From NCBI GenBank assembly GCA_002839375.1, contig PGXY01000009.1:128080-192079 (forward strand): a DNA stretch of 64,000 nucleotides. Direction: 5' to 3'. The notes beneath the pieces are model-generated. The model did not search any database. It saw only the letters and a program-made list of their open reading frames with translations, and was not told the origin of the DNA. Within the stretch, counting starts at the first letter, position 1; every line of letters begins with the position of its first letter. This DNA comes from Spirochaetae bacterium HGW-Spirochaetae-1 (GTDB lineage: Bacteria > Spirochaetota > UBA4802 > UBA5550). A program made the position numbers and the translations under genes. Positions 9,185 through 13,291 of the stretch are shown here, one piece after another.

Positions 9185-9487
9185 GAGTCGGACCAGGAAT
9201 TATAATCAAGTAGTGGTGCATCTGTAATGTGAGCTGTAAAGAAATTAAAAAGGTACTTTAAAACTTTACCGTCTGGCGTTTCTTCTTTTTATTCAGCCTT
9301 TACTGCCCGATTATTTTTAATTATTATATTTGACAAATAGTCTTGCTGATCTCAAATGTTAGATTAAGCATAAAAAAATACATATCGTTGCCGGTATGAA
9401 TACATTAAATTCCGATAAAGATTCGGCGTATTTATACAAAAAAAAGCTCTTTAACATAGCTTAATACACAGCACAGGGAGGATGTAT
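9185..9487 (+). promoter_or_regulatory. Upstream region of the formate dehydrogenase operon
   Basis: An AT-rich 303-base spacer with no supported ORF. TTGACA at 9330-9335 is a possible -35 box, but no convincing -10 lies at the right distance. No clear FNR-type (TTGAT-N4-ATCAA) or sigma54 site was found. GGGAGG at 9476-9481 is the ribosome site of the catalytic subunit gene; its spacing favours the ATG at 9488 over the one at 9482. Confidence 0.35.
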
Positions 9488-12466
9488 ATGCCTGTTACCA
9501 GAAGAAACTTCCTGAAAATGTCGGGGACAACGGCTGCCGGCGCCTTTTTTGGCGGAACGGCGTTTCTCACCGGGTGTAAGTCCCAGGACAAACTTCAGGG
9601 AACAAAAGAAACCACAACAATCTGTCCTTATTGCGGTGTTGGGTGTGGACTCGTTGTAGCGGCCAGAAATGGCAAGATAGTAAACGTTGAAGGAGATCCC
9701 GATCATCCAATCAACAAAGGGGCACTGTGCTCAAAGGGTAATGCCATCTATCAGATAGCAGCCAATCCCATTCAGCGAAGGCTGGATAAAGTACAGTATC
9801 GCCGCCCCGGGGGAACCCAGTGGGAGGAAATATCCTGGGATCAGGCAGTCAAAATGATTGCCAGAAGAGTAAAAGATACCAGGGACAAAACTTTTGTAGA
9901 AAAAGAAGGAGCCTATACAGTCAACAGGGCTCAGGGGTTAGTTGGACTCGGCGGTGCGGCTCTTGATAACGAAGAGTGCTATGTCTGGTCAAAGTTCGCC
10001 CGTATTATGGGCATTTCATATCTTGAACACCAGGCGCGAATATGACACAGCGCAACGGTCGCCGGTCTGGCGGCTTCATTCGGTCGTGGTGCAATGACAA
10101 ATCACTGGATAGATATCCAGCATGCGGACGTTATTTTTATAATTGGAAGTAATGCCGCAGAAAACCATCCAATTTCTTTTAAATATGTTCAGAAGTCCCG
10201 TGACAAGGGGGGCAAACTCATTGTCGTGGATCCCCGTTTCACCCGTTCAGCTTCTTTGGCGGATCTTTATGCACCCATCCGTCCCGGAACAGATATCGCT
10301 TTCATAAACGGTATCATGAACTACGCATTACAGAATGACAGAATTCAGAAAGAATATGTTGTTGAGTATACTAATGCGTCACTTCTTATCGATCCCAAAT
10401 ATACTTTTAATGATGGGCTCTTTTCCGGATATGATGTGGGAAAACGCAAATATGACAAAGGCGCATGGAAGTATCAGGTAAATGAAAAAGGGATACCCAA
10501 AAGGGATAAAACCCTCAAAGATCCCAACTGCGTCTATCAGCTTCTCAAAAAGCACGTGTCACGGTATACTCCTGAGCTTGTATCATCGGTGACAGGATGT
10601 CCTGTAGACTCTTTCTTAAAGGTAGCCGAGCTTTACACGAGTACATTCAAAAATGACCGTGTAGCCACTATCATGTATGCCATGGGAACGACCCAGCATA
10701 CAGTGGGTTCCCAGAACGTCAGGTCCTACGCCATGCTTCAGCTTCTTATGGGCAACATTGGAATGGCCGGCGGAGGAATTAACGCTCTTAGAGGTGAGTC
10801 TAACGTGCAGGGTTCAACGGACCATTGCATTCTCTGGCATATTCTTCCCGGATATCTCGGCATACCCAAGACAGACAAGGATGTGAATCTTGAGGCGTAT
10901 ATTAAGAACAATACTCCCAAGAGCAACGATCCCATGAGTGCCAACTGGTGGCAGAACAAACCCAAGTATCTGGTCAGCATGCTCAAGGCCTGGTACGGCG
11001 ATGCCGCCACAAAGGAAAATGATTTCGGTTACGACTGGATACCCAAGGCAACGAAGCCCTATCCTCATATCGTATTATTTGAGGACATGTATGCGGGAAT
11101 GCACGAGGGAGCAATTCTTATGGGTACCAACCCCGTTGTTGGCGGTCCCAACTCAACGAAGGAAGCGAAAGCCCTTGAGAGACTCAAGTGGCTCGTATGC
11201 GCAGACCTGTGGGAAACCGATACTTCCATTTTCTGGAAACGTGAGGGAGCGAATCCCGGAAGCATCCAGACAGAGGTATTTCTCCTCCCTATGGCAGCGT
11301 CGGTTGAAAAGGAAGGCAGTGTTTCCAATTCAGGGCGATGGGCCCAGTGGCGGTATAAAGCGCAAAATCCTCCGGGACAGGCTATTACGGACCTTGATCT
11401 CATTGACAAGCTCTTTACTGAAATCAGGGCGCTCTATAAAAAAGAGGGTGGCAAACTTCCCGAGCCAATTCTCAAAGCCAACTGGAATTACAAGCATAAT
11501 CCCGATGAGCATGAATGCGATCCTCATCTGGTCGCTCAGGAAATCAACGGATATGCCTGGAAAGGCAATGGCAAGATGGGAAGCCTTATGGAAAACTTCA
11601 CCAAACTGGCTGCCGATGGTACCACGGCCTGCGGTAACTGGCTTTACAGTGGCAGCTATAATGGAAAAGGAAATAATATGGCGCGTCGCGGACAGAAGGA
11701 CGCCTCCAATAAACTGGGCATGTATCCCGAATGGGCATGGTGCTGGCCGGTTAACAGACGGATCATTTATAACAGAGCAAGTGTGGATACCAAGGGTGTT
11801 CCCTGGAATCCCGCGAAGGCAGTTATTAAATGGACCGGCAGTAAGTGGGTTGGTGATGTTCCCGACGGCGCGTGGCCTCCCGGATCAAAGCACCCCTTCA
11901 TTATGAACAGTGAAGGCTATGCAAGGGTATTCGCCTCCGGTATGGCCGATGGTCCCTTTCCTGAGCACTATGAGCCCATGGAAAGTCCCGTAAAAAATAT
12001 ATTCAATTCACAGAAGGTGAATCCGGCAACGGTGATTCTCGGTTCAACATTGGGAGAATTCGGCGACAGCTCACAATATCCCTATGTGGCAACATCATAC
12101 CGGGTAACAGAACACTGGCAGGCTGGTGCTATGACGCGAAATCTGCCGTGGCTTACAGAGCTCGTTCCCGATATGTTCTGTGAAATAAGCCCGACTCTTG
12201 CCAAGAAGAAGGGCATTAAAAACGGCGATAAGGTTTTTATCAGATCAAAACGTGGTAAAATTGAAGCTCGTGCCCTGGTAACTGAACGTGTTCAGGCGTG
12301 GAAGGTACAGGGTAAAGAGATTGAAATGGTAGGTATGGTCTGGCATTTCGGTCAAGGTTGTGCGGTTAGCGGTGATTCCTGCAACAATCTTACACCGCAT
12401 ATAGGTGACGCAAATACAATGATCCCGGAATTTAAAGCATTCCTGGTGGACATTGAAAAGGCGTAA
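9488..12466 (+). CDS. fdhA: Selenocysteine formate dehydrogenase, catalytic subunit
   Basis: This molybdopterin/tungstopterin enzyme oxidises formate to CO2. The gene reads through an in-frame TGA (10043-10045) as selenocysteine 186, giving 992 residues. The residues after it, HSATVAGLA, are the family's active-site context, and a SECIS hairpin follows. The N terminus has a twin-arginine motif TRRNFLK (4-10), a hydrophobic stretch and LTGC (27-30), so the enzyme is probably exported folded by Tat and may be lipidated at Cys30. The [4Fe-4S] motif is Cys46, Cys49, Cys53 and Cys81. The molybdopterin domains run to the C terminus. The start at 9488 fits the ribosome site. The fdhB gene follows after 12 bases. 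Standard gene finding would split it in two. Confidence 0.96.
10043..10080 (+). promoter_or_regulatory. Selenocysteine UGA codon and bacterial SECIS element
   Basis: UGA at 10043-10045 is followed by a hairpin: GUCGCC (10058-10063) pairs with GGCGGC (10069-10074), including one G-U pair, around loop GGUCU (10064-10068). The loop and its distance, 18 bases from the UGA, match the E. coli fdhF SECIS, whose GGUCU loop binds SelB. The reading frame is continuous on both sides and the protein sequence across it fits the formate dehydrogenase family. Confidence 0.92.
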
Positions 12467-12478
12467 GGAGGTCATAAC

Positions 12479-13291
12479 ATGTCAAAAGCATTTATCGTTG
12501 ATACAACAAAATGTCAGGGTTGCAGGGCCTGTCAGGTTGCCTGTAAACAATGGAATGGCCTTCCCGGAGAAAAGACCGATTTCTTCGCCGGCCCGGAACT
12601 CACCAATCCGGCCGAGCTTTCAGCCATTACCTGGAACTACGTTAAGTTTTTCCCTCTTGATAGGGCAAACGCAGAACGTCCAATATGGACGATCATGCAT
12701 AAAAAGTGCTATCATTGCAAGGACGCGAACTGTATAAGGGTCTGTCCTCAAAAGGCCATCAGCAAGGTGGACGGATGGACGATTATCGATCAGAGCAAGT
12801 GCATCGGATGCGGTGCCTGTGAGAACGAATGCATATACCATGTTCCGCACGTAAGCAATGTAAACCACACTAACGATGTGGGACAGCATATTGTCGTGAA
12901 GGATAAGTCTCACAAATGCAACGCCTGTACGCTCAACGAAAGAGATGTTCCGGCCTGTGTAAACACCTGTCCTTCGCAGGCGCTTATTTTCGGCGATCAC
13001 GAGGAGATGGTAAAGCATGCCATGAGGCGTCTTGCCGAGATAAAAAAAGAATTTCCCCGTGCAAGCGTATACGGACTCAACGAATTCGGCGGACTGAAGG
13101 TCCTGACCATACTGAGAGACGCACCCTCAAAATATGGTCTGCCTGAAAACGTCAAGGCCATTGAGATCACCGCTCATGACGGCATCAAGGATGTGTATTC
13201 CCTGCTGTCCTCCTTCACCTTCGGTATACCAGCTCTGAAAAGAGCGGCATATCGTGCGGCGAAGTCCATGGGTTCTTCTAAAAACGCGTAA
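12479..13291 (+). CDS. fdhB: Formate dehydrogenase iron-sulfur subunit
   Basis: A 270-residue electron-transfer subunit with four ferredoxin-type cysteine groups: CQGCRACQVAC near the N terminus, CYHC...CIRVCP, CIGCGACENEC, and CNAC...CVNTCP. These would hold four [4Fe-4S] clusters that carry electrons away from the catalytic subunit. It resembles FdnH/FdhB, but the C-terminal transmembrane helix of FdnH is absent: the end is basic and only mildly hydrophobic. There is no signal peptide, so it is probably carried through Tat with the catalytic subunit. A TAAGGAGGT site overlaps the upstream stop codon, showing tight coupling. No cytochrome b subunit gene follows. Confidence 0.93.
   Translation: MSKAFIVDTTKCQGCRACQVACKQWNGLPGEKTDFFAGPELTNPAELSAITWNYVKFFPLDRANAERPIWTIMHKKCYHCKDANCIRVCPQKAISKVDGWTIIDQSKCIGCGACENECIYHVPHVSNVNHTNDVGQHIVVKDKSHKCNACTLNERDVPACVNTCPSQALIFGDHEEMVKHAMRRLAEIKKEFPRASVYGLNEFGGLKVLTILRDAPSKYGLPENVKAIEITAHDGIKDVYSLLSSFTFGIPALKRAAYRAAKSMGSSKNA

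Follow-up and report, generated by a model that had tools for sequence, protein, structure and literature searches.

The fdhAB locus

We analyzed a stretch of 64,000 nucleotides (the window; G000:C9:128080-192079) from a genome of 5.2 Mb in 14 contigs, whose lineage, judged from named relatives, is Spirochaetota. The gene pair fdhAB in this window encodes the catalytic and iron-sulphur subunits of a formate dehydrogenase (FDH; Table 1). An Rfam scan of the window returned only two tRNAs, neither of them at fdhAB. We placed the start of fdhA at the ATG at 9488. The in-frame ATG at 9482 is a poorer candidate because the ribosome-binding site AGGGAGG directly abuts it.

Table 1. Features of the fdhAB locus and of related loci in the same genome. 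Plain coordinates are window positions; L143 and L145 are extracted loci.
Feature	Position	Strand	Basis
Ribosome-binding site AGGGAGG, 6 nt ahead of ATG 9488	9475..9481	+	sequence
fdhA, Mo/W-bisPGD formate dehydrogenase alpha subunit, 992 aa, Sec at residue 186	9488..12466	+	TIGR01553; PDB best match D. vulgaris FdhA
FdhA Tat signal peptide, residues 1-29: TRRNFLK 4-10, hydrophobic 11-26, lipobox L27-T28-G29	9488..9574	+	PF10518, TIGR01409
Cys30 codon TGT, predicted lipidated N-terminus of mature FdhA	9575..9577	+	clade conservation, lipobox rule
In-frame TGA, codon 186, active-site selenocysteine of FdhA; Cys in some clade members	10043..10045	+	sequence
fdhB, iron-sulphur subunit, 270 aa, no signal peptide, no transmembrane helix	12479..13291	+	
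FdhB C-terminal helical hairpin, helices 231-244 and 251-267; second basic and amphipathic (FGIPALKRAAYRAAKS)	13169..13279	+	
NiFeSe-type hydrogenase small subunit, Tat motif and lipobox LQGC	L143:4257-5264; own genome G000:C3, about 329756-330763	-	
Small multihaem c-type cytochrome adjoining the hydrogenase, Sec-type lipoprotein-like signal (LISTAC)	L143:5761-6144	-	
Qrc-like menaquinone reductase operon	L145:1946-6576; own genome G000:C7	+	QrcA-D best NCBIfam matches, below cut-offs

FdhA matches TIGR01553, the model for the alpha subunit of FDH-N type enzymes, with 1301 bits over residues 3-991 (curated cut-off 814.2). It has the features of an FDH-N alpha subunit, namely a Sec or Cys ligand (here the TGA at codon 186) and an N-terminal [4Fe-4S] motif, ICPYCGVGC, and the position of Sec186 is occupied by TGA or Cys in relatives. 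FdhB scores only 124 bits against TIGR01582, the FDH beta equivalog (cut-off 334.7), and lacks the C-terminal transmembrane helix of the FDH-N (FdnGHI) beta subunit.

The N-terminal sequence of FdhA, MPVTRRNFLKMSGTTAAGAFFGGTAFLTGCKSQDKLQG, is followed by the [4Fe-4S] motif. It reads MPVTRRNFLK...AFLTGC30KS, combining a near-consensus Tat motif with a canonical lipobox; the twin-arginine motif, the hydrophobic stretch and LTGC at 27-30 agree exactly with an initial annotation made from the letters alone. When the N-terminal 61 residues are searched alone, both Tat models pass: Pfam TAT_signal (PF10518) with 24.1 bits (cut-off 22.7) and NCBIfam TIGR01409 with 23.6 bits (cut-off 16.7). The whole protein scores 18.8 bits against TAT_signal, under its cut-off. 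Cys30 also satisfies a PROSITE-style lipobox rule, by which a cysteine at residues 15-35 must follow six uncharged residues. However, shuffling residues 11-38 produced a lipobox in 5.2% of 200,000 trials, so the single sequence is only suggestive, and it is conservation within the clade of close relatives that makes the case strong.

Conservation of the lipobox cysteine

FdhA N-termini were collected from loci of the family, from 80 named genomes and from the phylum Spirochaetota. A FastTree tree of 104 non-redundant FdhA proteins was built from the mature part only, which kept the signal and lipobox columns out of the tree. The window FdhA falls in a clade of 28 rows with support 100. All members come from Spirochaetota with the exception of L042, and those of known kinship belong to one order and several families.

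The cysteine at the lipobox position is present in 26 of these 28 rows. Counted by alignment column, Cys occupies column 30 in 28 of 30 clade sequences, with one more shifted to position 32. The strict lipobox rule is satisfied by 25/31 clade proteins as against 2/76 outside (Fisher p about 1e-16, a descriptive value that ignores shared ancestry). Diverged members of the clade (L023, L128, L130 and L032; 44-56% identical) retain the cysteine, and the poorer lipoboxes lie on long branches (FTRC in L032, LNSC in L128, LEGC in L023). Outside the clade, FdhA signals mostly end in AxA-type signal peptidase I sites. The check proposed for Cys30, its conservation among close homologues, did not refute the lipoprotein reading: the residue is kept across several families of the order.

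These patterns bear on whether Cys30 is incidental, with signal peptidase I cutting nearby, so that FdhAB would be soluble in the periplasm, as it is in Desulfovibrio. The frequency of chance lipoboxes given above (5%) would allow this, FdhAB enzymes that have no membrane subunits do exist (PMC4215793), and two clade members, L019 (FLSARES at this site) and L042 (YLSALET), lack the cysteine. On the other hand, the Cys column has been kept among the diverged sequences through both codons (TGC 15, TGT 13) while positions 14, 21, 24, 25 and 33 vary, the window FdhA offers no convincing AxA site around residue 30, and AxA-like sites are found mostly in the relatives outside the clade instead. We consider an incidental cysteine very unlikely. 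The absence of Cys from L019 and L042 represents two losses, and since the fdhAB gene pair persists in both, the lipid is not indispensable to the enzyme.

Both strict matches outside the clade belong to Desulfacinum (LGGC) and are independent of the window clade on the tree. In these two loci (L103 and L107) the lipobox ALGGC is at FdhA residue 24, and the enzyme is a two-subunit FdhAB with no transmembrane tail. The L042 sequence (PDZT01000302.1) is filed as Deltaproteobacteria although its FdhA lies inside the Spirochaetota clade, so it is either misbinned or transferred. Two genomes, G005 and G014, have two clade FdhA copies each (L025 and L026 versus L010 and L013). One copy of each pair is a Sec protein and the other is a Cys-type protein with no in-frame TGA, and the lipobox Cys is found in all four.

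FdhB and the absence of membrane subunits

The window FdhB has no C-terminal anchor, as the initial annotation had stated. The most hydrophobic 17-residue segment of its tail has a hydropathy of 0.94, compared with 1.72 for E. coli FdnH, which served as the yardstick. A transmembrane-like FdhB tail occurs in none of 19 clade members but in 50 of 62 proteins outside. Similarly, a polytopic ORF lies downstream of fdhB in 40 of 51 loci outside the clade that have enough sequence, whereas no gene for a cytochrome b or NrfD-type gamma subunit was found beside fdhAB in the window or in the clade loci.

The only polytopic ORFs downstream in the clade are at L039 and L066. We rejected both as membrane subunits of the enzyme: the 505-aa ORF at L039 is 2.4 kb away, and the one after fdhB at L066 reads as a transporter. 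A partner encoded elsewhere in the genome was likewise rejected. The single match to PF01292 (cytochrome b) sits in a 6-haem protein, and the three NrfD matches are all away from fdhAB, one of them in a Qrc-like operon. That the enzyme has no cytochrome b subunit had also been claimed from the window, where the next ORFs do not encode membrane subunits of the enzyme.

In place of a hydrophobic tail, clade FdhB proteins end in a conserved basic amphipathic helix (FTFGxPxLKRxAYRxxKS), a feature that the first reading of the locus overlooked. An AlphaFold model of FdhB (36 sequences, mean pLDDT 91.5) contains helices at 231-244 and 251-267, the latter predicted with fair to high confidence, and the modelled fold agrees with those of FdnH and of D. 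vulgaris FdhB (over 233 alignment columns for the latter). The second helix may provide a second membrane contact. It could even be the main contact, with the lipid in an accessory or regulatory role, given that the tail is conserved in the clade, that helix 251-267 is predicted at that confidence and that L019 and L042 retain it while lacking the cysteine. However, L032 keeps the cysteine and has no such FdhB tail. Furthermore, FdhB of L103 and L115, which have no transmembrane tail, likewise end in a basic amphipathic segment, so the helix could instead dock a cytochrome or FdhA. A primary role for the helix is therefore rather doubtful in our judgement, and we favor the FdhA lipid as the principal anchor. 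The anchors have apparently been exchanged between subunits, from the FdhB tail in relatives to the predicted FdhA lipid in the clade.

Comparison with related enzymes

The nearest solved FdhA is that of the D. vulgaris W/Sec-FdhAB (6sdr), which matches over its full length with about 1110 bits. The two enzymes share a two-subunit composition, selenocysteine, a Tat-type signal and the absence of a cytochrome b subunit. However, the D. vulgaris enzyme is soluble, its FdhA signal has no Cys aligned with the lipobox Cys30 of the window protein, and its FdhB is about 215 residues long and has no amphipathic tail. E. coli FdnGHI (1kqf) is similar in belonging to the TIGR01553 family and in having a Tat signal on the alpha subunit with a hitchhiking beta subunit. 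It differs in that the FdnG signal ends in ALAQA, an SPI type, that FdnH has a transmembrane tail (1.72 on the scale above) and that FdnI is encoded next door; the window fdhAB has neither tail nor neighboring gene.

On the tree, the neighbors of the clade are Geobacteraceae-type FdhAB enzymes with an NrfD-like subunit, whose FdhA proteins are 55-58% identical. These have an SPI-type signal, a more hydrophobic FdhB tail and a downstream polytopic subunit, unlike the clade. The layout had been called unusual for a respiratory formate dehydrogenase, and this holds in that sister lineages carry a transmembrane tail on FdhB and usually a polytopic subunit. The missing cytochrome b is not odd in itself, because Desulfovibrio FdhAB also does without one, its acceptor probably being cytochrome c3 (PMC4215793). 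Together with the two clade members lacking the cysteine, this anchor-free enzyme indicates that a lipid tether is no strict requirement. Nevertheless, the proposal that a lipid on FdhA tethers the complex to the membrane is supported by the sequence patterns described here.

The closest parallels to such a tether are hydrogenases. As described in PMC7349357, D. vulgaris HysAB is a two-subunit periplasmic redox enzyme in which an N-terminal lipid replaces a membrane subunit, as we propose for FdhAB. It is, however, a hydrogenase, and it is described there as having no typical lipoprotein signal, while the FdhA lipobox is canonical. A predicted [FeFe] hydrogenase (PMC10924467) also resembles FdhAB in having a catalytic subunit with a Tat signal and an SPII site and a hitchhiking Fe-S partner, but that partner is tail-anchored and accompanied by a HybB-like quinone subunit, both of which are gone from FdhAB. 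We found no report of a lipoprotein formate dehydrogenase in the open-access papers searched. An FdhAB of the FDH-N family in which a predicted lipid on the catalytic subunit replaces the transmembrane anchor would be a new layout, with hydrogenases as its precedents.

A hydrogenase and a cytochrome with similar signals

The same genome encodes a NiFeSe-type hydrogenase whose large subunit matches NF033181 with 672 bits (cut-off 600). Its small subunit begins MSLNRRDFLKIMGGTTAAFAFPGVILQGCKK, and a Tat signal with a lipobox Cys is found in all 30 hydrogenase small subunits examined across the order. A lipid anchor on a NiFeSe enzyme has a precedent in D. vulgaris, whose hydrogenase is reported to be held through an N-terminal lipid (PMC7349357, citing Valente 2007), and a Tat-lipoprotein [FeFe] hydrogenase was predicted earlier (PMC10924467). 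In addition, the cytochrome encoded beside the hydrogenase has, by eye, a Cys after the hydrophobic stretch in nearly all homologues. From these signals it looks as if the hydrogenase of the same organisms is lipid-anchored in the same way, and FdhA is in keeping with a broader pattern there.

Export, lipidation and electron acceptors

TatC, Lgt and Lsp are each encoded by one copy in the genome. No electron acceptor genes adjoin fdhAB. However, cytochrome c3-type proteins are encoded in the genome, as is a Qrc-like operon for six-haem, molybdopterin-like, Fe-S and NrfD-like subunits. QrcA-D are the best NCBIfam matches for all four, each scoring under its curated cut-off. In Desulfovibrio, the use of formate and H2 depends on Qrc, which supplies menaquinone with electrons taken from type-1 cytochrome c3 (PMC4215793). 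The window enzyme has two subunits like the soluble Desulfovibrio-type FdhAB, with the c3-type cytochromes and the Qrc-like complex encoded away from fdhAB. By analogy, electrons would pass from FdhB through cytochromes to the Qrc-like complex. A second FdhA-like protein containing a TGA codon is encoded in the same genome (L002; G000:C5:236047-238077) and has an N-terminal ferredoxin-like extension. It probably stays in the cytoplasm, in which case formate may be handled on either side of the membrane.

We consider it quite probable that Tat exports FdhAB in the folded state, that Cys30 is lipidated, and that c-type cytochromes link the enzyme with a menaquinone reductase of the Qrc-like kind. 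FdhA would be synthesized in the cytoplasm with selenocysteine and its Mo/W cofactor, FdhB, which has no signal of its own, would join it there, and Tat would export the folded pair. Lgt would then diacylate Cys30, and Lsp would cut ahead of it. The lipid would seat the complex on the membrane, perhaps with a contribution from the amphipathic, basic helix at the FdhB C-terminus, and would substitute for both the FdhB transmembrane tail and the polytopic quinone subunit of the sister enzymes. Electrons from formate would flow through FdhB to c-type cytochromes, the Qrc-like complex and menaquinone, along a route parallel to that of the hydrogenase with the same anchoring. The sequences themselves show the signal and lipobox, their conservation throughout the clade, the missing tail and partner, and the genes for TatC, Lgt, Lsp, the Qrc-like subunits and the cytochromes; from these we infer the acylation and cleavage at Cys30, the attachment to a membrane, be it the inner or the outer one, and the direction of electron flow.

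Which membrane it is bears on a different fate for the lipoprotein. In E. coli, Asp at position +2 retains lipoproteins in the inner membrane and Lys at +2 directs them to the outer membrane, and Shewanella has molybdoenzyme lipoproteins at its cell surface. Residue +2 is Lys, not Asp, in most clade FdhA proteins, so FdhA could be sorted to the outer membrane or cell surface, where formate oxidation would feed outward electron transfer and not menaquinone. However, the sorting rules of spirochaete lipoproteins differ from those of E. coli, the genome encodes the Qrc-like route to menaquinone, and the surroundings of fdhAB showed no porin-cytochrome genes. Outward electron transfer thus seems improbable to us, and we prefer the route to menaquinone.

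In an entire order of uncultured spirochaetes, a selenium formate dehydrogenase appears to be held at the membrane by a lipid on its catalytic subunit. A broader proposal is that the order shares a lipid-tethered periplasmic circuit, in which a Tat-lipoprotein FDH, a Tat-lipoprotein NiFeSe-type hydrogenase and lipoprotein c-type cytochromes, with no membrane-spanning anchors, meet at the Qrc-like menaquinone reductase; we regard the chances of this as evenly balanced. A natural lipid-tethered enzyme interconverting CO2 and formate would be of interest for work with electrodes and liposomes. The apparent exchange of anchors takes place inside one enzyme family, with relatives using a tail and a quinone subunit and the clade a predicted lipid on the other subunit, and this makes it testable why enzymes bind membranes when their partner is a mobile cytochrome. 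The design would be common to the formate dehydrogenase, hydrogenase and cytochromes of anaerobic spirochaetes, in which the metabolism of formate and hydrogen has been little studied.
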